In this document: positions 6,059 to 20,286 of the stretch, piece by piece | Numbering within the stretch: the first letter of the stretch is position 1 | How the letters are laid out: each line of letters opens with the position of its first letter | DNA from: a virus | Strand: one strand, 5' to 3' | DNA: 21,645 nucleotides | Virus record (IMG/VR): IMGVR_UViG_3300046804_002057 | Span: 1 to 21,645 of that record | The notes under the pieces: generated by a model | Told to the model about the DNA's origin: nothing | The model's database searches: none | What the model saw: only the letters and a program-made list of their open reading frames with translations | Made by a program: the position numbers and the translations under genes

Positions 6059-6393
6059 GCATCGAAGCAATGAAGGCCGCGCTGGAGGCGCTGGAAGATA
6101 TTTTTGGAAAAAATAAAGTTGATGTTGGGGCTATCAATGTTTTGCGCAAAGCCATCGAAGAAGCAGAGAAGCAAGAGCCGGTGGCGTGTCCTTATTGCCA
6201 TTGTTCAGCCACGCTTGGTGCTGTGTATTTTGACCAGAACTGCGCTGGATGTGTGAAGCGAATGATCCACCCACAACCCAAGCGCGAATGGGTTGGGCTG
6301 ACTGATGAGGAAGCGGCTGAATGCTGGAACTCTAGCGCGGTCACGACATGGAAAAACATTGAAGCCAAGCTGCGGGAGAAGAACGGATGCTAG
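6055..6393 (+). CDS. Modular phage protein: helical N-term, Cys cluster, REWVGLTDEE motif (2)
   Basis: A 112-aa protein with three visible parts. Residues 1-43 are an Ala/Glu-rich helical segment (MKAALEALEDIFG...AIEEAEKQEPVA). Residues 45-66 hold CPYCHC...CAGC, probably a small zinc ribbon (C45, C48, C63, C66). Residues 77-112 are REWVGLTDEE followed by an AKLREKN tail. The first and last parts recur in many small phage proteins as I remember them, in varied combinations. ATGA overlap with the previous gene and AAGGAGAAG supply the start. Function unknown. Confidence 0.7.
   Translation: MSIEAMKAALEALEDIFGKNKVDVGAINVLRKAIEEAEKQEPVACPYCHCSATLGAVYFDQNCAGCVKRMIHPQPKREWVGLTDEEAAECWNSSAVTTWKNIEAKLREKNGC
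6283..6312 (+). repeat. 30-bp direct repeat, copy 2 (REWVGLTDEE module)
   Basis: Second copy of 5719-5748, 29 of 30 bases identical, encoding REWVGLTDEE of the 112-aa protein. Confidence 0.85.
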
Positions 6394-6809
6394 TCCAACT
6401 ACTCCAACCTGATCCGATCTTGCTTGATGACCCTGTGCGCCCGAGCATTGCGCCAGAGAGTCGCGTCGGCAAATGGAGTCGCGTTTACCTGCACATCGAC
6501 GATGACGACAGAACCGTGGGTGCCGTGCTGTGTGCCGTGCAGATGGACTTCATACCAACAGAAGAAGCGCAACTGTTTCTGCCTGATTTGAGTCCGCTGC
6601 CAAAAATTGCGGTGCTGTACAGCATCTGGTCATATCGCAAGGGCGCGGGCAGCAAATTAGTGCGCGAGTATCTGAGCATGAAGAGTCCAGAAGTGACAAT
6701 GCGAATCGTCACGATGAGTCCGAAGACGACGATGGCGAGAGACTTCCATTTACGCAATGGAGCGAAGACATTGCAGGAGAACGAGGAGACGGTGAATTAT
6801 GAATACTGA
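6387..6809 (+). CDS. GNAT-family N-acetyltransferase-like protein
   Basis: A 140-aa protein of usual GNAT length. Residues 73-97 (KIAVLYSIWSYRKGAGSKLVREYL) fit GNAT motif A: a beta strand, then R-K-G-A-G-S as the acetyl-CoA pyrophosphate loop and a helix. Residues 117-129 (ARDFHLRNGAKTL) resemble motif B (AxxFYxxxGF). It would transfer an acetyl group from acetyl-CoA to an unknown amine, perhaps a host protein. GGAGAAG lies upstream of the ATG at 6387, inside the end of the preceding gene. Substrate cannot be inferred from sequence. Confidence 0.65.
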   Translation: MLVQLLQPDPILLDDPVRPSIAPESRVGKWSRVYLHIDDDDRTVGAVLCAVQMDFIPTEEAQLFLPDLSPLPKIAVLYSIWSYRKGAGSKLVREYLSMKSPEVTMRIVTMSPKTTMARDFHLRNGAKTLQENEETVNYEY

Positions 6810-8498: not shown

Positions 8499-10217
8499 TC
8501 AGGGACTTATGATGTTGGAGATTGCGCGGCCAATTGTTCCGCTGATGTCATTCGATGCAGGTCTTTCTTGCCTGACAGACGAAGGATTGAATGGCGCGTA
8601 CTTGTTGACAAACTGACCGTAGTAGTCGTTGTACTGATTCACGATACGCTGATACTCGGGCGAGTTAAAGAACTGCGTGCGTCGCTCAGGAGGCAGCGAG
8701 CTGTAGGCTTGGTATGTCTGCTCGCGCTCTTTGTTGCCCAAGATGTTAAGTCTCGTCCAGTATTCAATCGCCTTGCTGGAGTCAGCCACGCTGGCCATCG
8801 GCGCACCCATCAGTTGTGCATCGAAGTTGGATACCTGCGATCCCAACACGCCCTTGTTGGCTCGCGCATTCAGCAAGAACTGTTCGCCAAGGATCTGCGT
8901 GGCTCTGGTCAGCATCGGACGAAGATTCTCCGGCACCTTCAGCGCCTGAACGAACTTGTCCGCCGGCAGACTGAATGAGCCACCGGGGATTCGCACGCCC
9001 TCTTGTGCCGCGTTGTAGATGGCCGAGATCACGCCCTGCTTTTGCAACAGGCCGAATATGTCGGTGCCACCGGCTTTGACATTCTCTTCGTTCTGTTTGA
9101 GCAGAGTCATCAACTCGCGCAGGCTTCTGTCACGCGCCGAAGTCACCGCAGGGTTGGCGGCCATGACCGCTTCACGCAACGGCTTGACCTCGGCCTCGGA
9201 TTCCTTGATCCGCCCAGCCCGAAGCTCTGCTTGCGTGGCCAAGGGAAGGTTTTGCTCTTCGGCACTCGTCTCGCCAGCCGGTGCGGCAGGTCTTGCGGCG
9301 GGTGCGCCTTGGCTTGGCCTGACACTGACCGTGAACTTCTGATCCGTGCCACGCAATTGGTTGGCAAGCGCCTGAGCCTGCTCATCGGTATCCACGACAT
9401 ATCGGTTGACGCCGTCAGCGCCAAACTCCGGTTCAGCAGGAGCTGCAGGGGTCGCAGGAGTCTGCCCAGTCACTGGGCCGCCAGCCGGCAGGTACTTGGT
9501 CACAGCCGGGCCATACTTGGCCATCAGCTCGGCCACACCCATGCCAGCTTTGAAGTCTTCACGAACCAGCTTGGCTCGCTCGATGTCCATGTTGTAGGCG
9601 TTCTTCAGCCCCTCGGCCATCTTCGGGCTGACTTGCTGCACTCGCATGTACAGCTCAGGAGTGATCTTGGATACATCGCCACCGGGCACAGTGCCAGAAG
9701 ACAGAGACTGCGCTGCAGCCTCGGGCGTGGTTCCAAATATCTGCGAGATCATCTTGAGTGCCTGAGCTTCCTTGGCAAGCTCTACACCTTTCTCGGCCAT
9801 GCCAAGCTGGCTTTGAACCATTTCAAGGCGCATCTTGGCCAACTGCTGGGCAGCGGCATCTTGTCTCGCTTGTTGACCTTGCAACTCGCCAACAGCATTG
9901 CCAAATGCCACGCCAAACTGTCCAGTCGGATTGGGCGCAAGCAGACCACGCGAGATTGCAAACAGCGTATCCGATGCGTTGGGCTTGGAACGCTCTTCCA
10001 GCGAACGAAGCAGATCTGCCTGCACACGGCGCAGATTGTTCATCTCGGCGTACACATTCTGCCGAGCTGCCTCGGGTGAATCAGGCATCGTGATCTGTTG
10101 GACTTCTTCACGAGCAGGCACAGCGGAAAGGCCGCTTTGTGAGGGAGTAGAGTCAATCGCTGAGCCAACCATGCGACCTAGCGCGCCACCAACAAAGGAG
10201 GGGAGAATGTCAGCCAT
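8499..10217 (-). CDS. Putative internal virion/ejection protein, helical
   Basis: A 572-aa protein with a good ribosome site (GGAGGAAT) before the ATG at 10217. The N-terminal 20 residues are Gly-rich (MADILPSFVGGALGRMVGSA). Residues about 45-200 are Gln/Ala/Met-rich and probably helical or coiled. A Pro/Ala linker follows (about 245-320), then a folded-looking C-terminal domain (about 350-550). This architecture and position resemble phage ejection or internal core proteins, but no catalytic motif is recognised. Function is inferred from the neighbourhood, not from homology. Confidence 0.6.
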   Translation of the reverse strand: MADILPSFVGGALGRMVGSAIDSTPSQSGLSAVPAREEVQQITMPDSPEAARQNVYAEMNNLRRVQADLLRSLEERSKPNASDTLFAISRGLLAPNPTGQFGVAFGNAVGELQGQQARQDAAAQQLAKMRLEMVQSQLGMAEKGVELAKEAQALKMISQIFGTTPEAAAQSLSSGTVPGGDVSKITPELYMRVQQVSPKMAEGLKNAYNMDIERAKLVREDFKAGMGVAELMAKYGPAVTKYLPAGGPVTGQTPATPAAPAEPEFGADGVNRYVVDTDEQAQALANQLRGTDQKFTVSVRPSQGAPAARPAAPAGETSAEEQNLPLATQAELRAGRIKESEAEVKPLREAVMAANPAVTSARDRSLRELMTLLKQNEENVKAGGTDIFGLLQKQGVISAIYNAAQEGVRIPGGSFSLPADKFVQALKVPENLRPMLTRATQILGEQFLLNARANKGVLGSQVSNFDAQLMGAPMASVADSSKAIEYWTRLNILGNKEREQTYQAYSSLPPERRTQFFNSPEYQRIVNQYNDYYGQFVNKYAPFNPSSVRQERPASNDISGTIGRAISNIISP

Positions 10218-10220
10218 AAC

Positions 10221-11351
10221 TTATTCCTCCATCCAATTAGTATCCTGAGTGCCTGCGTCCCCGGTAAAGGTATAGGCACCTATTTGATCTTGATATGGAA
10301 CTCCAGTCGAATCGACATATTGACCGCTCTGCGGATCGAAATAAATTCCTTCCCCTGAAGAGTTGACTCCAGCAAATTGATAATCTGCAGAAGTGTCAGC
10401 CGGCCCGGTTGTTACTATTGATCCAGCGTCAGTTCCACCAGTAATGCCAAGAATCTTTCCAATATCCTTGATGCCTTCAGTAATGCCCTTGTACGGAGCA
10501 ACGCCACCTTGTCCCGGAGTGAAGAGAGCGCCAGCGCCAGCGGTAAGACCACCCAACAATTCGGCAGGCGACTTGGCATACGCGCCCGGCATCGGGCCAG
10601 TGTACTGTTGCGTGGTTGATGTCGGCACCGTGTAACCCTTGATCAGTTGCGACACTTGACCCAAGGCGCTCATCGGATAGTTCAGCTTGGCCTGTTCTAG
10701 CGCCTGCTGTTGCGCGCCGAGCTTGTTCAGAATATCCAGACCACCAGTGCCTTGCGTGTATTGCTGTCCAGACAGTTGTCCAAGCTGTTGAGCTGCCTGC
10801 AGATCCAGCGTCTGCTGAGCCTGCGCTGCTTTCAGGGCAGCATCAAACCCGCCAGCCAAAGTCTGCGCTTGACGACCCAGCACATCGCGGTTGGCTTCAC
10901 GCGCCAGATTGCCATAGACATTCATGCCGCGAGTCGAGCCGAACTGACCCGACCCCACAGCTCCGGCCGTTGCACCGGGAGCAATCTTGTTCTCCCATTC
11001 CTGCTGACCCAATCGCCCAATCTCACCCACCACCTGCTCGGTGTAAGGGTTCATGTACTGACTGATCATGCTCATGGTCGGCGTATTGGCCACATTCGTT
11101 GCCGTGCCAACCGCAGTTCCAAGAGCGCCTTGGCCAGCTCCTACAGCCCCCGGAGCTTGCTGGAAGACTTGCTTTTGCAGGTCAGAAAAACCGGCAACGC
11201 CGCCTTGTTCAACGGCTTGCTGCCCGGCTCCTGCCAGTCCGCTCAGGAAGTTGTTGTACCAAGCCGGCGCAGTGGTGGTGGTGGCCGTTGTAGTCTTGAC
11301 ATCAGGAGCCGCCGCTCCTTGCCAAAAACCGGGTTGTGCTGGATCAGCCAT
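10221..11351 (-). CDS. Putative virion structural/ejection protein, Gln/Ala/Gly-rich
   Basis: A 376-aa protein. The central region has MSQYMNPYTEQVVGEIGRLG-like and SGQFGSTRGMNVYGNLAREANRD stretches, a pattern I remember from uncharacterised structural proteins of environmental podoviruses. It is followed by Gln/Ala repeats (AAQAQQTLDLQAAQQLGQL). The C-terminus is Gly/Thr/Asp-rich. It overlaps the 570-aa gene by 8 nt. No enzymatic motif. Likely packaged or part of the ejection apparatus; confidence in the precise role is low. Confidence 0.55.
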   Translation of the reverse strand: MADPAQPGFWQGAAAPDVKTTTATTTTAPAWYNNFLSGLAGAGQQAVEQGGVAGFSDLQKQVFQQAPGAVGAGQGALGTAVGTATNVANTPTMSMISQYMNPYTEQVVGEIGRLGQQEWENKIAPGATAGAVGSGQFGSTRGMNVYGNLAREANRDVLGRQAQTLAGGFDAALKAAQAQQTLDLQAAQQLGQLSGQQYTQGTGGLDILNKLGAQQQALEQAKLNYPMSALGQVSQLIKGYTVPTSTTQQYTGPMPGAYAKSPAELLGGLTAGAGALFTPGQGGVAPYKGITEGIKDIGKILGITGGTDAGSIVTTGPADTSADYQFAGVNSSGEGIYFDPQSGQYVDSTGVPYQDQIGAYTFTGDAGTQDTNWMEE

Positions 11352-13056
11352 GTTTTTTCCTCGCCATCTTCAAGTATTCCAACGGACTCTTCGCCGCCGG
11401 AGGGATTTTGTTCACCGGAGCCGAACGCTTGTGCTGCCGAATCTCTTCACGAAACTTGTCCAGAATCTGCGCTCCAGCCTTGGACGATCCATCGCCCAAC
11501 TGCGCCACCGTATCCGCGTCGATCACATACTCGCCATCAGCCAACATGGTCGGGATGTCATCTGACTGCCCTGTGCCCGGCCCATTCACCGCGAAGCCGC
11601 GCTTCATGTGACGCCGGTACAGCCTGTTCTCCGGCCCCGGAACCAGATCCACCGCACCACCTATTGCATAGCCCCGCGCCAGTATCAATCGCTGCAGGGC
11701 GGGATCAATGGCCGTATTTTGATCTGTTAAGCCGCCGGAGACAAGGCTGGCCTGCTCATCCGTCAATCCGGAAAACAGCGGGCTAACTTGCTGATCCGTC
11801 GGCATGGTGCTGCTCAACAGGTTCGGAGCCAACATCGGACGGGCAAACGGATTGCCATACCGGATCGGCGTATTGGTCAGGCCGCTCTCTTCGCCAAGAA
11901 TCTGGCCAAACTGCGGAGCTGCACTCTGATCCGTCGGAGCAACTTTTTGCACCATGCCTACCGGAAGACCTCCGCCAGTCGGCGTTCCAAGCGTGCTTGT
12001 AGCGGCCGTAGGAAGCCCTGTAGGCGTGCCGGCGGTCGGCCTGACAGATATGGGCGACGCAGCCTGTCTCTGAGGCGCTGTGGGCGATCCTGTGAGCGCC
12101 TGACCCACTTGGCCGCTGAGGTAATTGGTGGCCGACTCAGCCGCCGGCTTTGCCCAGTCTGGCAGCTCGTTCGACAGCGTGCTCAGAGCGCCTTGCGCTG
12201 CTGCGGTTCCAAGGAATCCTTCAACGCTCGGGGTCTGACCTTTGAGCGCCGAGGTCGTGGCGTAGCTGGCAAGCCGCCCGGCCAACTTGGAGTCGGTCAG
12301 ATCAGTCGTGACCATTCCAGTAGCAGCACCAGCGCCAGAGATCAGGGCGTTCTGAATCGTGTCTTCCAGCGACTTGCCGGTCAGACCGGATCGCATCGCG
12401 CTGGTGACGATATTATTGACAACCGGGTTCTGCAGAGCCTCAACCATTTCTGCCGGGGCACCCAAGGCATCGGCCAGATAGGCCAAGCCCGGCTTCAGTT
12501 TTCCAGTTGGGATGCCTCCAGATTCGCCCGGAAGAATGTTTTGCTGAAGCGGAGACTCTGGGAGTGCTGGAGCCTGCGGAGTAGCAGGAGCCTCTGGCAA
12601 TCCAGTGGTGGTTTCCGGAAACGCGCTTTCCAGCGGCCCCGGAATGTCAATCGGCGCAGACGCTACCTGTGAAGGGGTAAGGCTTGGCACAAGCTCTTCT
12701 GCAGTCACTTCCGGCACAACAGAAGCCTCCGCGCCCTGCTCGGCAACGCTTATTGCCTCCTCCAGACTCATCGGCTCCGGAGGCGGAACCAAGCCTTGGC
12801 TCATCTCGGTGAGGACAGCCTCCGGCGCTGCAGCAGTGGCAGCTGCAACCTCAGTTGCGGCCTCGGCGGCAGGAAGCACTGATTCTGCAAGTGATGCGGT
12901 AACTGCGCCAGCCCCAGCAACTTCTCCAGCAATAGCGCCTAATGCAGCCCCGGCAAGCTCTTCTTCAAAAAAACTTGTTGCTACTGCAGATGCAACGGTT
13001 TCAATCGCAACATCTGCAACGAGTGCTTCGGCAACAAATGCGGCAACGACGGCCAT
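11344..13056 (-). CDS. Large Ala/Pro-rich virion-associated protein with C-terminal SDDIPxxLxDGEYVI domain
   Basis: A 570-aa protein. The first 100 residues are extremely Ala/Val/Glu-rich with hydrophobic stretches. The middle is Pro/Thr/Gly linker (about 325-400). From residue 494 a recognisable phage module appears: GTGQSDDIPTMLADGEYVIDADTV, then a Lys/Arg tail. This SDxIPxxLSxGEYVI module is found at the C-termini of several phage tail and virion proteins; its job is not known to me. The start at 13056 has GAGGGAGAAC upstream, and its ATG overlaps the previous stop (TAATG). Probably an ejected or internal structural protein. Confidence 0.6.
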   Translation of the reverse strand: MAVVAAFVAEALVADVAIETVASAVATSFFEEELAGAALGAIAGEVAGAGAVTASLAESVLPAAEAATEVAAATAAAPEAVLTEMSQGLVPPPEPMSLEEAISVAEQGAEASVVPEVTAEELVPSLTPSQVASAPIDIPGPLESAFPETTTGLPEAPATPQAPALPESPLQQNILPGESGGIPTGKLKPGLAYLADALGAPAEMVEALQNPVVNNIVTSAMRSGLTGKSLEDTIQNALISGAGAATGMVTTDLTDSKLAGRLASYATTSALKGQTPSVEGFLGTAAAQGALSTLSNELPDWAKPAAESATNYLSGQVGQALTGSPTAPQRQAASPISVRPTAGTPTGLPTAATSTLGTPTGGGLPVGMVQKVAPTDQSAAPQFGQILGEESGLTNTPIRYGNPFARPMLAPNLLSSTMPTDQQVSPLFSGLTDEQASLVSGGLTDQNTAIDPALQRLILARGYAIGGAVDLVPGPENRLYRRHMKRGFAVNGPGTGQSDDIPTMLADGEYVIDADTVAQLGDGSSKAGAQILDKFREEIRQHKRSAPVNKIPPAAKSPLEYLKMARKKHG

Positions 13057-13496
13057 TATTGTTCTCCCTCACGACGAGGCCCAAGCATCACGGTGACGTT
13101 GTAGACGCCATTCGCTTTCTTAACTTGATACCCCATATCTGGCGGCTGATCTTTGCCGATATAACGGAAAATTGATAGCAGGGTGGGATCTTCAAACTGC
13201 GTTACCAAGACATCAAAACCAATGTCATAGGCTTCACGAGTAAATTCCACGCTGCTCTGAAGATAATTCCTTGGCGTGTCAGCATTCAAGGCGCGAAAGA
13301 ATCCCATGCGATTTTTGCCCTTGTGAATGACAAACAAAGTGTTGCCAAACCGAAGCAGAATCGCATCCGGCATCTGGCATTCCTTGGTTATCGAAGCTAG
13401 CACCGCAGAGGGCGGATACTTCGACTTGGTTTCCTCTGCCGCGATCCGGATGATTTCCGGAACAGACAGCTCTCGTTCTTGGCTATCGACAACCAT
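13056..13496 (-). CDS. Conserved-looking phage protein, possible GNAT fold
   Basis: A 146-aa protein. Residues 47-75 (LLRFGNTLFVIHKGKNRMGFFRALNADTP) read as paired beta strands. Then come a helix (NYLQSSVEFTREAYDIGFD) and a strand-helix (VLVTQFEDPTLLSIFRYIGK) ending MGYQVKKANGVYNVTVML. This strand/helix order and length resemble the GNAT-like protein found near tail genes of other podoviruses, but the R/QxxGxG/A loop of acetyl-CoA binders is missing. It lies 3 nt after the KAS gene, so a link to acyl chemistry is possible. AGGTG precedes the ATG at 13496. Enzyme function is not shown. Confidence 0.5.
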   Translation of the reverse strand: MVVDSQERELSVPEIIRIAAEETKSKYPPSAVLASITKECQMPDAILLRFGNTLFVIHKGKNRMGFFRALNADTPRNYLQSSVEFTREAYDIGFDVLVTQFEDPTLLSIFRYIGKDQPPDMGYQVKKANGVYNVTVMLGPRREGEQ

Positions 13497-13499
13497 GTG

Positions 13500-14600
13500 T
13501 CACCTGATCAATTGAAATACCGCTGCGCTGTAGATGTTTCCCATCCCCGCAGCAAGACTGAGAATCAACCCTTCCGGAGCCTCAACATCGTGAGACAGGA
13601 AGACATGATCCTCTTCGGTGCGATTAGCAATCGCTGGAACCTTCCCCACACGCATCTCTTCCAGAAGAAGGAGCGTCTCAAGCAAGCCGCTCGATCCCAT
13701 CGTGTGACCAATGCGGGGCTTGTATGAGGTCGCCACAAAATTCGTGAGCATGGAAGACAAAGCATTCTTTTCCGCAGCATTGTTTGAATCCGTCCCTGTG
13801 CCGTGAGTCTTGACAACCCTGATGTCATCCGGGCGCACCATGTTCTCCAGCACGCCCTTGATTGCTTTGGTAAAGCCTTCACCATCTTCGCGCTGACCAA
13901 TCGGGTTGGTTGATGCCTCGGAGGCGTTGTTCGCGGTAACGAGGGAGGCTTGGCCAGTCTCGGCGACTGACGCATGCTCGAACACCGCCAGCGCAGCCCC
14001 TTGACCGATGCGGAACTTCTTGTTCTTGCCATCGAAGGCAGATGGAATGATCCCGGCTTCCTCTTCCTTGGCGGTCAGCACCGCCTTGGATTCGCCGAAG
14101 AACTCCAGCACCGAGTTAGATACGCCATCCTCAACGGTCAGGACGATCACCCGCTTGTAGTTCTGATACCGGATCATCACCTCAACATCCTGCATGACCT
14201 TTAGGCTGCTGGCGCAGGCGCTTGAATCCGTCACCACCAGATCGATCTGCCCGAACTGCTGGGCTATTCTGCCAGCCCAGACTTGGGTCAGGGTGAACGG
14301 CATGAAACGGTAGCCGTAGTTCAGCTTGTTTGCCGGGTACGCCTTGGGCGTCATCCCCGCGAAGTGCGCGTTGCCTGCAGCAAGGACGAAGGCAGTCTTG
14401 CCAACCGGGTTTTCTCGCAGCCGCTTGATCAGAGCCGGGTCAAGCACCTTCTCCGCCACCTTGTGCGGGACATAGTTCATGCCGGTCTTGAGATTCCCGA
14501 AGACCTCCGGAAACAGATGCACGCGCTGCGGATAGACGACATCGTCCAGCAGCGTGGTCTGTTCCGTACAGGCCGTCCGGGAATGGGTCAGGAAGATCAC
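13500..14600 (-). CDS. Beta-ketoacyl-ACP synthase (FabF/FabB-like), phage-encoded
   Basis: A 366-aa condensing enzyme of the thiolase fold. The catalytic residues are visible: Cys129 in TDSSACASS, His266 in KTHGTGTD, Lys294 and His299 in SYKPRIGHTMGSSG. This is the Cys-His-His set that loads an acyl chain from ACP and condenses it with malonyl-ACP in fatty acid or polyketide synthesis. It is shorter than bacterial FabF (about 413 aa): the part before the nucleophile is about 35 residues shorter. The usual GFGGTN gating loop near the C-terminus reads AAGMGN. Start is GTG at 14600, overlapping the ACP stop (GTGA), so the two proteins are co-translated. Family call firm; product unknown. Confidence 0.9.
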   Translation of the reverse strand: MIFLTHSRTACTEQTTLLDDVVYPQRVHLFPEVFGNLKTGMNYVPHKVAEKVLDPALIKRLRENPVGKTAFVLAAGNAHFAGMTPKAYPANKLNYGYRFMPFTLTQVWAGRIAQQFGQIDLVVTDSSACASSLKVMQDVEVMIRYQNYKRVIVLTVEDGVSNSVLEFFGESKAVLTAKEEEAGIIPSAFDGKNKKFRIGQGAALAVFEHASVAETGQASLVTANNASEASTNPIGQREDGEGFTKAIKGVLENMVRPDDIRVVKTHGTGTDSNNAAEKNALSSMLTNFVATSYKPRIGHTMGSSGLLETLLLLEEMRVGKVPAIANRTEEDHVFLSHDVEAPEGLILSLAAGMGNIYSAAVFQLIR

Positions 14601-14884
14601 TTGATCAGCTCAATCGCAGCGTCAATCGACTCAGGCTCCCGAGTCTTGTGTTGCATCAGGAAGGCGTGCATCTCGCCTACCGTGGCAGGGTTCATGGTCT
14701 TGGCAATCTCTTCTGGAACGCCGTAGATCTCGCTCATGTAGATGCAGATCATCAGCGTGTCCAGACTGTCGATGTCAATGTCGGGCAGCTTGTCATCCAG
14801 CGACTTGGCGTTGTCAAAGTCAGGGTGCATCGGTTTTGCGATGCGCGCGACTGCATTGAACAGTTCTGTGAATTCCATCTTCAT
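14597..14884 (-). CDS. Acyl carrier protein, phage-encoded
   Basis: A 95-aa protein with the ACP signature DIDSLDTLMICIYMSEIYGV: Ser40 in D-S-L is the expected 4'-phosphopantetheine attachment site, followed by the acidic recognition helix II. The protein is acidic overall, as ACPs are, and slightly longer than E. coli AcpP, with a C-terminal extension (HKTREPESIDAAIELIK). It would carry acyl chains as thioesters for the coupled synthase encoded next. No phosphopantetheinyl transferase is in the window, so a host AcpS/Sfp enzyme must load it. The ATG overlaps the previous stop (ATGA) and the stop overlaps the KAS start. Confidence 0.9.
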   Translation of the reverse strand: MKMEFTELFNAVARIAKPMHPDFDNAKSLDDKLPDIDIDSLDTLMICIYMSEIYGVPEEIAKTMNPATVGEMHAFLMQHKTREPESIDAAIELIK

Positions 14885-15129
14885 CCCTTTGGATTGACGG
14901 CATTGACCACGGCTTGCGCCCAGTCCTGCCAGTTCTCATAGATATACGGGCCGGGGATGGCCTCATTGACAAACACATCAATGGCTTTCAACCCTGCGGC
15001 CCAATCCTTCCAATTCTCTTCTGTCACGCCGATCTGCAACTGCTGAGGTGCATACGCCTCACACATCAGAGACGACCACGACTCAAAGGTATGGAAGCGC
15101 GGATCATAGACCAGAGCAGGCTGAGCCAT
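14881..15129 (-). CDS. Small Trp-rich protein upstream of ACP, unknown function
   Basis: An 82-aa acidic protein with five tryptophans, four of them in the repeated patterns ENWKDWAAGL (residues about 38-47) and ENWQDWAQAV (about 65-74), suggesting an internal duplication of a short helical unit. The first ATG (15129) overlaps the hub stop (TGATG) and the stop overlaps the ACP start. No known motif. The repeat NWxDWAxxL may mark a protein-binding helix hairpin. It is the first gene after the hub and may be a minor virion part or a partner of the ACP/KAS pair. Confidence 0.6.
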   Translation of the reverse strand: MAQPALVYDPRFHTFESWSSLMCEAYAPQQLQIGVTEENWKDWAAGLKAIDVFVNEAIPGPYIYENWQDWAQAVVNAVNPKG

Positions 15130-17183
15130 CAGTACGGCCTCACATCGCCAACGTCTGCGCTGAGCATTATCCGACCCAACTGATAGTTTCCGTCCTGCAC
15201 ATCCGACACGAAAATCAGGCGCAGTTCCCGGCGCTGCTCACGCAGATCGATCTTGCCGGTGTCAGGCTCAAAGGTGTAGGGGCCAGTGGTGACGTCCGCC
15301 TTCTGGGCGAACGGGCGACCAGTGACATAGAACTCCATCTGCCCGGACTGAATGAAGTCAGGCTCCATCCGCTCCAGATGCAACCAGTAGTTGTCTCCCA
15401 CCATCGTGGACTGCGACGGGCCACCAGCAACCAAGCCAAGGTCGTTGGTCTCGAACGACGAACGGATCGCTCGGATGCTCTGGCCTTTCACCTCGTTGGT
15501 TCCGACCTCGTGCTGCCACAAACTCATCAAGCCGGGCACACTCTTAAAGTCGGCCGATACGGTGTCGGTTGCCGTGCAGTTCGCGCTCAGGGTGATGTCG
15601 TAGTAACCCTCGGTTGTGCTGGCCACGATGTCAAGAATCGTCGTTCCATCAGGCACACCATCGGCCACGACAATCATCCCGACATAGAGCTGGTTGCTGA
15701 TCGCCGTCGTGATCACCGCGTTGCCGTTTGTGGTGTCAATGTCTTGGGTGAGAATCGTTCTCTCAACTGACAAGTCTTCTCCGGCCATCACAGGGAAGCG
15801 AAACACCTGAGAGAAGTATCCAGCGGTGCGAGTCGCGCCAACAGAGGAGCCTGCGTCATACCAGCAGTTCTCGCGGATGTTGTAGATGATCGCGTCGTTG
15901 CACTCTTCCGAGTCGCCCTTCGGGTAGAACCACCAGATCTCGCCGAACCTTGGAACCTTGGTCGCCCAGACCTTCTGGCGCTGGTTGTAGTTGAGGTTGT
16001 CGAAGAAGTAGTTCTGATTGAAGTCGTTCGGCAGTTCCTTGATCACGCCGTTGTAGAGCAGGAACCGATCAACGCCGATCCAGTAATAGATGCCGTCATA
16101 CTCGATCACGCACTGGCTGGAAAGAATCGTGGACGAGCCGACGATGTCATAGCGCCAATAGAGCTGCTGCGTTCCCACGGTGGTTGGCGCATAACTCACC
16201 CGGATCAGGGAGTCGAGCGCCCAAAACAGACCGGACGGCGCATTCGATCCGCCGCGCACCGGAAGGCCTTTCACAATCTTTTGCGAGGAGACATTCACCT
16301 CGTTGGAGTCCGCGCTGTTCCAGTCAAACACATTGCCGGCCGAGCAGTTCTTGATCAGGCCGTTGTCGCCGTAGACGAAGACATACGGGTGCAAAGCCAC
16401 CACGCCGCCAGCCACCTTGATGGTGTCTCCGGTCGGAGCCGTTCCGGCGGTGTCTTTCAGTGGATACATGACCGACCCACCCGGAGCGCCAGCCAGCACC
16501 GCAGTTGCGGTGGTGTTGTCGATCTGGGCGAGGTTTTGGCCGGGGTGAGCAAGCAGCAGATTGTTGCCATCACCAGTGGCGTCGAAGAATCCGTCGAACT
16601 GCCACAGGTTGAAGTCGCTGGACTGGAAGTCAGAGTCCACGGTCGCAACCTTGACCGAGAAGCCGGATCCCGTGCCCCCGATAGCCGAGGCCAGAGCGGA
16701 CAAAGTGTCTCCAGCCGCATACCCGTTGCCCTCGGTGGTGATGGTCACGGAGGACACAGCAGCCCCAGAAACAACGATGGTGGCCTTTGCGCCCGTCCCA
16801 GAGCCGCCAGTGAGGCTGACTGCGGTGTAGGTGCCGTTCGTGTACAGAGAGCCGCCTGTGAGCGTCCCAGTGGTCAGGATCGGCCCGCCGTTCATGTTGT
16901 ATTCGGTGATCCCCGCGCCGATGCCGTTGTTGTCGCACTCGAACCGCTCAAGGCCGTCGTTGTAGCCATTGAAAATGCGGTTGAATCCGTCCTCAGATTC
17001 AACGTAAATGCCGCGAGACAACCCCTTCATCTGGTTGGTCATCTCGCGGTAGCCGCCAATTTTCCTCGGGCGGCCACGTTGAAACCGCACCCACTCGCCG
17101 TCCTGATAGAACAGCTTGTCCAGCACGGTACCGTCGCGCTGGATTCCCGACTTGGTATCGAGGGCGAAAACCTTTTTGGTCAT
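15129..17183 (-). CDS. P22 gp10-like tail hub/DNA stabilisation protein with inserted domains
   Basis: A 684-aa protein. The N-terminus (KLFYQDGEWVRFQRGRPRKIGGYR, about 23-46) and the beta-rich body (FIQSGQMEFYVTGRPF, IYYWIGVDRFLLYNGV) match the pattern of podovirus tail hub/nozzle proteins (P22 gp10 type), which plug the portal and carry fibres. Two stretches look inserted. About 106-182 is Gly/Ser/Thr-rich with YTNGTYTAVSLTGGSGTG and GNGYAAGDTLSA. About 480-548 contains TTNGNAVITT and VGMIVVADGVPDGTTI. Both types recur in phage and surface proteins as I remember. It is coupled to the fibre-like gene by an ATGA overlap. Confidence 0.7.
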   Translation of the reverse strand: MTKKVFALDTKSGIQRDGTVLDKLFYQDGEWVRFQRGRPRKIGGYREMTNQMKGLSRGIYVESEDGFNRIFNGYNDGLERFECDNNGIGAGITEYNMNGGPILTTGTLTGGSLYTNGTYTAVSLTGGSGTGAKATIVVSGAAVSSVTITTEGNGYAAGDTLSALASAIGGTGSGFSVKVATVDSDFQSSDFNLWQFDGFFDATGDGNNLLLAHPGQNLAQIDNTTATAVLAGAPGGSVMYPLKDTAGTAPTGDTIKVAGGVVALHPYVFVYGDNGLIKNCSAGNVFDWNSADSNEVNVSSQKIVKGLPVRGGSNAPSGLFWALDSLIRVSYAPTTVGTQQLYWRYDIVGSSTILSSQCVIEYDGIYYWIGVDRFLLYNGVIKELPNDFNQNYFFDNLNYNQRQKVWATKVPRFGEIWWFYPKGDSEECNDAIIYNIRENCWYDAGSSVGATRTAGYFSQVFRFPVMAGEDLSVERTILTQDIDTTNGNAVITTAISNQLYVGMIVVADGVPDGTTILDIVASTTEGYYDITLSANCTATDTVSADFKSVPGLMSLWQHEVGTNEVKGQSIRAIRSSFETNDLGLVAGGPSQSTMVGDNYWLHLERMEPDFIQSGQMEFYVTGRPFAQKADVTTGPYTFEPDTGKIDLREQRRELRLIFVSDVQDGNYQLGRIMLSADVGDVRPY

Positions 17184-19119: not shown

Positions 19120-19143
19120 AAATAGGTCAATTTCGACCAATTT
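19120..19143. promoter_or_regulatory. 24-bp dyad, copy 2 (shared with 1302-1325)
   Basis: The forward sequence is AAATAGGTC, six bases, then GACCAATTT: an inverted repeat with one mismatch in 9-base arms. It touches the endolysin stop and lies upstream of the adaptor gene. As minus-strand RNA it would be a short GGTC/GACC stem followed by UAUUUUUCUU, so a weak terminator is possible; an operator or activator site is equally possible. The sequence alone does not decide. Confidence 0.5.
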
Positions 19144-19667
19144 CAGGCCAGCATGGTGTTGGCCGCAGCCTCTACCGACTCTACCCGAGCCAGCCAGCCC
19201 TTCAGGAACTTTTCCTGCTCCGGGCGCCGGGACACAATCCCCCGGTAGAACGCCTCTTTCTGCTCCGAAAACCGCTCCAGAAGCTCTTCCGGCCGGTGGT
19301 TGGACACCGCAGCCAAGGTTCCCGGCCCGATGGCGCCATCGTCCTTGGTTCCGGCCGCCCGTTGCAGGAACTTGGCCGCCTGACCCGTGCCGGCGTTGAC
19401 CGCAAAGTCAAAAACCGCGTAATCCACCCCCGCTGGCAAGTCATCGCATCGGCACCGATCCCAGTATTGCTTCTTGTAAAACGGCTTCACCTGATCCACG
19501 GTCAAGGCTTTCATCTCGCCGTCCATGATCGCCCGGCCAAGATACTCGCCCCACGCAATCCGCGTTACCCCGAGGTTGGTCTCGCCGCCCCGGTCGTGCG
19601 GGTCGTTGACATAGCCGCCCTCGGACTTGATGACATGGGCGAACGCGGCTTCCCAGTTGGCTTTCAT
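19143..19667 (-). CDS. Endolysin, GH108 N-acetylmuramidase with peptidoglycan-binding C-terminus
   Basis: A 174-aa lysozyme-type enzyme. Residues 15-35 (SEGGYVNDPHDRGGETNLGVT) are the GH108 signature; Glu16 is the expected catalytic acid. The C-terminal part (about 95-170: GQAAKFLQRAAGTKDDGAIGPGTLAAV) fits the small peptidoglycan-binding domain usually attached to this family. There is no signal peptide, so release should depend on a holin. It is the last gene of the lysis cassette; its ATG overlaps the stop of the membrane protein gene (ATGA). It cuts the glycan strands of the host wall at the end of infection. Confidence 0.93.
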   Translation of the reverse strand: MKANWEAAFAHVIKSEGGYVNDPHDRGGETNLGVTRIAWGEYLGRAIMDGEMKALTVDQVKPFYKKQYWDRCRCDDLPAGVDYAVFDFAVNAGTGQAAKFLQRAAGTKDDGAIGPGTLAAVSNHRPEELLERFSEQKEAFYRGIVSRRPEQEKFLKGWLARVESVEAAANTMLA

Positions 19668-19891
19668 TTCTCAATATGCTCCGTGACTTTGACGGCGGCC
19701 AAGATGCCGATGAAGCCGCCTACGATGGTGTTGAAGGCAGGGCCGATGATTGGGAATATGTCGTCATTGCTGACCACACCGTTGGGCACGAACAGGCCGT
19801 ACAAAAAGACACCGACCATTGAGACCATCACCAGCGACAGGGTGACGCTAACAAGAATGGTCACAAAACAAATCGTGTTCTCGCGGTTCAT
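19664..19891 (-). CDS. Small two-TM membrane protein, holin-like
   Basis: A 75-aa protein; I chose the ATG at 19891, which overlaps the previous stop and begins MNRENTICFV. Two hydrophobic segments are seen: CFVTILVSVTLSLVMVSMVGVFLYGL (about 8-33) and IIGPAFNTIVGGFIGILAAV (about 48-67). A charged tail follows (KVTEHIEK). Size, topology and position just before the endolysin fit a holin or antiholin. Because the neighbouring gene is also holin-like, which one triggers lysis cannot be said. Confidence 0.65.
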   Translation of the reverse strand: MNRENTICFVTILVSVTLSLVMVSMVGVFLYGLFVPNGVVSNDDIFPIIGPAFNTIVGGFIGILAAVKVTEHIEK

Positions 19892-20286
19892 TTTTTGTCC
19901 TTCATGGCGATGATCTTCTCCAGCGTCCTGCCGCCGAAGTAGAAAGACATGATCAGCATGCCCCACTGCCCCAGCAGCTCGACATACCGCTCGTTGGTGT
20001 CGCGGTCAAAGGCAGACATCAGGGCAAAGATGAAGTAGCCAGTCAGAATCGCAATAAGCGTCATTGGCCGGATGTTCTTCGACAGCCAAGAGTCAGAACC
20101 CATGTCGGCTTTTAGCCGATCTGTCAGTTCGTGCTGCTCCGATACGTCGGCATTCAACTGCGCCAATTCGCCGTTTTGCTGCATCTCCAGCAACTTCAGC
20201 TTGGCCGCCTCTGCCGCCGCAGGGTCTGGGAAGACCTTGTCAAGAATCTTGCTGCCAATATCTAGCACCGCACCGAGTGGGAACAT
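19888..20286 (-). CDS. Holin, GTA_holin_3TM-like
   Basis: A 132-aa protein with an amphipathic N-terminal region (MFPLGAVLDIGSKILDKVFPDPAAAEAAKLKLLEMQQNGELAQL). Then comes SDSWLSKNIRPMT and two clear hydrophobic segments, about 75-93 (MTLIAILTGYFIFALMSAF) and 103-118. The PDPAAAEAAKLKLLEMQQNGEL and WLSKNIRP patterns are those of the GTA-type 3TM holin family as I know it. It would form membrane lesions that let the endolysin reach the wall. It is coupled by overlap to the downstream two-TM gene. Confidence 0.75.
   Translation of the reverse strand: MFPLGAVLDIGSKILDKVFPDPAAAEAAKLKLLEMQQNGELAQLNADVSEQHELTDRLKADMGSDSWLSKNIRPMTLIAILTGYFIFALMSAFDRDTNERYVELLGQWGMLIMSFYFGGRTLEKIIAMKDKK

Follow-up and report, generated by a model that had tools for sequence, protein, structure and literature searches.

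The viral DNA considered here (IMG/VR record IMGVR_UViG_3300046804_002057, 21,645 nucleotides; hereafter the window) is a virus record of 21.6 kb that probably represents only part of a genome. Its minus strand carries three contiguous genes, encoding an acyl carrier protein (ACP), a beta-ketoacyl-ACP synthase (KAS) and a GNAT-fold protein, flanked upstream by the gene for a P22 gp10-like protein and downstream by genes for ejection-type proteins (Table 1). The original prediction, made from the sequence alone, described the three open reading frames, their junctions and the catalytic residues of the ACP and KAS, and proved correct in each of these respects. The TGA stop codon of the ACP gene shares four nucleotides (GTGA) with the GTG start of the KAS gene (junction sequence ATCAAGTGATC); 3 nt separate the KAS stop from the ATG of the third gene, the stop codon of which in turn overlaps the ATG of the ejection protein 1 gene (TAATG); and the gene upstream, for an 82-residue protein, overlaps the ACP start (ATGA). 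Five consecutive genes, from that for the 82-residue protein through ejection protein 1, thus abut, and a search of this row detected no sigma-70-like promoter. Because the junctions are tight and no such internal promoter was identified, these genes very likely form one translationally coupled message, and their position suggests that the cassette would be expressed late.

Table 1. Coordinates of the ACP-KAS-GNAT cassette and of neighbouring genes in the window
Feature	Coordinates	Strand	Remarks
ACP	14597..14884	(-)	95 aa; phosphopantetheine-attachment Ser40 (DSLD)
FabF-like beta-ketoacyl-ACP synthase (KAS)	13500..14600	(-)	366 aa; GTG start; Cys129, His266, Lys294, His299
GNAT-fold protein (third gene), candidate acyltransferase	13056..13496	(-)	146 aa; AlphaFold model, Foldseek
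Ejection protein 1, candidate substrate	11344..13056	(-)	570 aa; window N-terminus MAVVAAF
82-aa protein, function not assigned	14881..15129	(-)	kept between gp10-like gene and cassette, whether ACP-KAS is present or absent
P22 gp10-like tail/head-closure ('phage stabilization') protein	15129..17183	(-)	upstream border of cargo slot; phrog_3287, 7e-21
Second ejection-type protein of operon	10221..11351	(-)	376 aa; position and synteny only
Third ejection-type protein of operon	8499..10217	(-)	572 aa; position and synteny only

Identification of the ACP is weak from the single sequence but clear for the family as a whole. The window protein alone gives a weak profile match (0.005) and PF00550 recognises 13 of the 37 family sequences (lowest E-value 3e-4), whilst PDB ACPs align in register with the family profile. 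The predicted model (pLDDT 91.8) has the helical ACP fold, with helix II (residues 40-54) beginning at Ser40 of the D39-S40-L41 motif, and its 50 best Foldseek matches are essentially all ACPs, at E-values (lowest 0.016) that are modest, as is to be anticipated for so short a helical protein. The carrier serine is kept in all 99 unique ACPs.

The second protein is, on the evidence of Pfam (PF02801, 1.2e-13; PF00109, 4.6e-9), NCBIfam (FabF, 1.2e-24) and PDB (FabF, 1.9e-18) profiles, certain to be a KAS; it also matches phrog_35856 (3e-42), to which no function is assigned. Cys129 (in SSACASSLK), His266 (KTHGTGT) and Lys294 and His299 (both KPRIGHTMG) reproduce the Cys-His-Lys-His active site of FabF (KAS II), and are invariant in 99 of 99 unique KAS sequences. 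The phage protein is nevertheless shorter than FabF, scores 86.8 bits, far short of the 493.75 required by the equivalog cut-off, and in 97 of the 99 sequences carries AAGM in place of the FabF gating loop (loop 1) GFGG; it is therefore a member of the KAS I/II superfamily and not FabF itself. This substitution suggests that access of substrates to the phage KAS differs from that in FabF, but is no argument against activity, since the FabF mutant F400A still reacts with acyl-ACPs (PMC7138838).

That the third gene might encode a GNAT fold, as had also been proposed, is borne out by an AlphaFold model (pLDDT 90.7) with its elements in GNAT order, for which the PDB matches listed by Foldseek are acetyltransferases (GNATs; best E 1.4e-4). 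No sequence-level match was found for the window protein, Pfam acyltransferase models matched none of 46 family members, and the PHROG match of the family is just 0.007 (two members). The R/Q-x-x-G-x-G/A pyrophosphate (CoA) loop of the GNAT superfamily is absent, its place being taken by an invariant N71-A72-D73 (N71-A72-D73-T74 in the window). In this the protein resembles the ApxIC/HlyC-type (RtxC) acyltransferases, which use acyl-ACP and combine a GNAT fold with a lack of the CoA-contact elements (PMC8339906); it differs from them in escaping the Pfam acyltransferase models, so that it does not belong to the RtxC/HlyC acyl-ACP lysine acyltransferases by sequence, and in having a phage ACP and KAS alongside. 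Because the fold lacks a CoA loop and the gene adjoins those for the ACP and KAS, the GNAT-like protein may accept acyl groups from acyl-ACP. A second GNAT-looking open reading frame (140 residues; 6387-6809 (+)) lies in an opposite-strand region of the window; its RKGAGSKL segment resembles a CoA-binding loop, it has no Pfam match, and a similar protein is encoded by a relative (G001, 21851-22273).

The cassette is real, widespread and conserved. A scan with two sequences returned at least 120 viral contigs that encode the KAS, of which 80 were kept, and a search for the pair at the same position in phage collections, as suggested in the original prediction, recovers the gene order at about 80 IMG/VR loci and in MW202545.1 (Caudoviricetes sp. 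ctpbd312, Manatee Spring), the sole named record with the cassette. Wherever a contig is long enough the ACP gene lies directly upstream of the KAS gene and the GNAT-like gene directly downstream, the 4-nt ACP/KAS overlap being kept in the close family; the location between hub and ejection genes of the late operon is likewise kept across relatives. MW202545.1 has the three genes in the same slot, at 62% (KAS), 48% (ACP) and 36% (third gene) identity to the window, but annotated just as a 3-oxoacyl-ACP synthase and hypothetical proteins; its KAS start appears to be annotated about 156 nt late (L002, 20001-20157), the conserved start being the GTG that overlaps the ACP stop. The gp10-like protein of the window, which also matches phrog_460 (head closure Hc2, 0.001), has an orthologue annotated in the same record. 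Two longer relatives (53 and 55 kb) carry 127-bp end repeats and on that account look complete; in both, the cassette is bordered on one side by the gp10-like gene and on the other by four or five large genes of ejection type. The phages that carry the cassette are short-tailed, aquatic and uncultured, and form a family.

Median dN/dS values of 0.084 (KAS), 0.107 (ACP) and 0.088 (GNAT) indicate strong purifying selection on all three genes, which, with catalytic sites degraded in none of the 99 KAS or 99 ACP sequences, upholds the emphasis placed on intact residues in the original prediction. That the pair is a neutral hitchhiker or a recent chance insertion, to which its absence from sister phages (below) might point, is refuted by this selection, by wide divergence (KAS identity down to about 53%) and by the constant gene order, and we consider it extremely improbable. 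Of two scans of bacterial genomes, the first found no copy of the KAS; the second yielded a single 54%-identical copy, on a contig of a Balneolaceae metagenome-assembled genome (MAG), and one bacterial KAS at 24%. Neither scan identified a host donor. The Balneolaceae contig (L178, 7720-9569) carries the whole ACP-KAS-GNAT cassette among phage-like neighbours, and may be a host lead or a mis-binned virus.

A phosphopantetheinyl transferase (PPTase; PF01648) was sought in 14 long records, and a malonyl transferase (PF00698) and a FabG-type reductase (PF13561) in 8, without any being detected; host enzymes would therefore be needed to prime and load the ACP, as had been anticipated from the window. 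These searches also bear on the idea that the ACP-KAS pair acts on host metabolism late in infection, increasing fatty-acid synthesis or diverting it (for membrane supply, fluidity or lysis), with no virion protein as target. Both proteins have intact residues, and ACP, as well as fabG-acpP-fabF in three prophages, has been named among auxiliary metabolic genes (PMC8224337, PMC11705849). The Rhodobacteraceae prophage genes (PMC8224337) share with the cassette an ACP adjoining FabF in a phage context, but have the typical bacterial fab order, with FabG, and, so far as is described, lie outside any tail operon. The ACP-KAS pair, by contrast, occupies a fixed slot by the ejection genes and is invariably accompanied by the GNAT-like gene, no further fatty-acid synthesis gene having been found with it, and its KAS, with a replaced loop 1 and a score far from that of host FabF, is unlike recently borrowed metabolic genes; we judge such a metabolic role unlikely.

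Searches with the third gene exposed phages in which the operon is shared but the ACP and KAS genes are missing (L116, L182), and a set of 80 sister loci was collected using the gp10-like protein of these ACP-KAS-less phages. Profiles found no ACP or KAS in any of the 80. The GNAT-like gene is present in 37, and a further 22 with enough sequence lack it; examples of what the slot holds in the latter are a GNAT-looking protein (PF00583, E 0.04, below cut-off), a 121-residue protein of unknown function, an Asp/Asn beta-hydroxylase (PF05118, 1.7e-10) with a cupin (L263, 7469-8403 (+), between the gp10-like/83-residue genes and an ejection protein), or nothing. Since sisters sharing the operon keep the GNAT-like gene alone, other genes or nothing, the ACP and KAS are accessory to the GNAT-like protein and not part of the virion core. 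The GNAT-like protein is the more constant partner, a point that the original prediction did not foresee. At least three changes separate loci with and without KAS on the GNAT tree, although a single clade of the ACP-KAS-less phages is not rejected (p-AU 0.46). We infer that the slot serves as a cargo position whose enzymes possibly modify proteins of the virion. An ACP without KAS was also sought in the sisters and rejected: none was found by profile, and the 190-250-nt gap codes for a small protein, some 50 residues long, that is unrelated. In many KAS-less sisters (L191, 8385-8615; L223, L227 and others) a conserved open reading frame of this size, MHGQQTMKYLNDKAVADAI, stands just ahead of the GNAT-like gene.

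The sister phages also bear on the suggestion that the GNAT-like protein, fed by the ACP and KAS, makes a small molecule such as an N-acyl amino acid or an acyl-homoserine-lactone-like compound. LuxI and FeeM are GNAT-fold enzymes that use acyl-ACP for such products, and the types of enzyme (ACP, KAS, GNAT fold) are alike; a match of one GNAT-like member to AHL_synthase (PF17327) is not significant (E 0.12, sub-threshold) and was dismissed as noise. Coupling of the cassette to virion genes, and retention of the GNAT-like gene in sisters that have no ACP or KAS, fit such synthesis poorly, and we regard it as improbable. Alternatively, the GNAT-like protein might be a non-enzymatic assembly factor standing in place of P22 gp14 or T7 gp13, with the ACP and KAS as bound partners or minor virion parts. 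The slot equals that of P22 gene 14 and T7 gene 13, between hub/tail and ejection genes, and Foldseek matches the model to a phage protein of DUF2824 (E 7.5e-4), the Pfam family of P22 gp14. Homology to gp14 or gp13 was not detectable in sequence (hhalign probabilities below 1%) and was rejected; the P22 and T7 systems have no ACP or KAS, and catalytic residues intact in all 99 KAS sequences are hard to explain without catalysis. This role, too, is rather unlikely.

If the GNAT-like protein is an acyltransferase, the gene that follows it offers a candidate substrate. In phages that have the GNAT-like gene, with or without KAS, ejection protein 1 typically opens with M-[S/G/A]-A-V-V: among distinct N-termini, position 2 is Ser, Gly or Ala in 72 of 73 from KAS-containing loci and in 29 of 29 from loci lacking KAS, and in the former Ala3 and Val4 each occur in 66 of 73. 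The M-x-A-V-V start is missing from all 22 of the 22 GNAT-less sisters. In pairs of ejection protein 1 sequences less than 25% identical overall, residues 2-5 are 60% identical, as against 34% for residues 11-20, and third codon positions are variable. Tape-measure PHROGs match a stretch at the C-terminus of the protein (11344-11600 (-)), within which lies a GPGTGQSDDIPTMLADGEYVIDADTV segment.

Accordingly, and tentatively, we favour a reading in which the three genes form a late acylation cassette, a dedicated ACP and a phage KAS feeding the GNAT-like protein, which would acylate a virion protein, possibly ejection protein 1 at its N-terminus. In the proposed sequence a host PPTase would convert the phage ACP to its holo form, which host FabD or acyl-ACP enzymes would load. 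The phage KAS, to which condensing activity is attributed because its catalytic residues are intact, would then condense an acyl group with malonyl-ACP to give a specific (3-oxo)acyl-ACP, which host reductases might then process. The GNAT-fold protein would receive the acyl group from the ACP and transfer it to an adjacently made protein. An ejection protein is the most plausible recipient, and the conserved N-terminus of ejection protein 1 is the leading candidate; acylation would help the ejection channel to insert into the membrane. Phages lacking ACP and KAS would draw on host acyl-ACP or another acyl group. The fully specified version, in which the GNAT-fold protein is an N-terminal acyltransferase that fatty-acylates ejection protein 1 during assembly and so yields a lipidated DNA-ejection channel, the acyl group being set by the phage whilst in sisters the transferase would use acyl groups of the host, is a good deal more doubtful. 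Of the functions offered in the original prediction, acylation of a virion or ejection protein thus fits best, and lipid remodelling and a signal compound stay as lesser readings; its interpretation as a whole is partly supported.

A functional parallel is IacP, a dedicated ACP encoded in a secretion operon that serves acylation of the pore-forming type III translocon protein SipB (PMC5279801). Both are dedicated ACP genes among the genes of a membrane-penetrating delivery machine; the abstract of that paper mentions no KAS or GNAT partner for IacP, and there a Cys is acylated, whereas ejection protein 1 is nearly free of Cys.

Several observations weigh against the acylation cassette and its proposed target. 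TM-scores of the third-gene model to GNATs in Foldseek are 0.5-0.6 only, and the protein, a putative enzyme, could be non-enzymatic. The N-terminal motif may merely start an amphipathic membrane helix, is unchanged by the presence of KAS, and includes a residue choice (Ser, Gly or Ala at position 2) found in 40-52% of genes anyway; adjoining genes may, moreover, travel as a block, which would confound its correlation with the GNAT-like gene. Ejection protein 1 has no Cys in 56 of 58 members, which rules out acylation of the SipB type in nearly all of them, and no Lys conserved at 80%, so that fixed-site Lys acylation is not indicated. Some sister phages have an empty slot, and the function of the cassette is accordingly dispensable.

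The open-access literature searched yielded nothing specific on a phage ACP and KAS in a tail operon, nor on lipidation of ejection proteins; the parts are known, and their combination and place were not met there. The cassette bears on how short-tailed phages move proteins through the cell envelope, and a conserved ACP-KAS pair with intact sites, tied to a GNAT-fold protein in an ejection operon, makes lipidation of ejection proteins directly testable. It also raises the possibility that some phage ACP and KAS genes labelled auxiliary metabolic genes are virion-assembly genes instead. Elsewhere in the window, at 19143-19667 (-) and 19888-20286 (-), lie the lysis genes, a GH108 endolysin (1e-29) and a GTA-type 3TM holin (2.4e-12).

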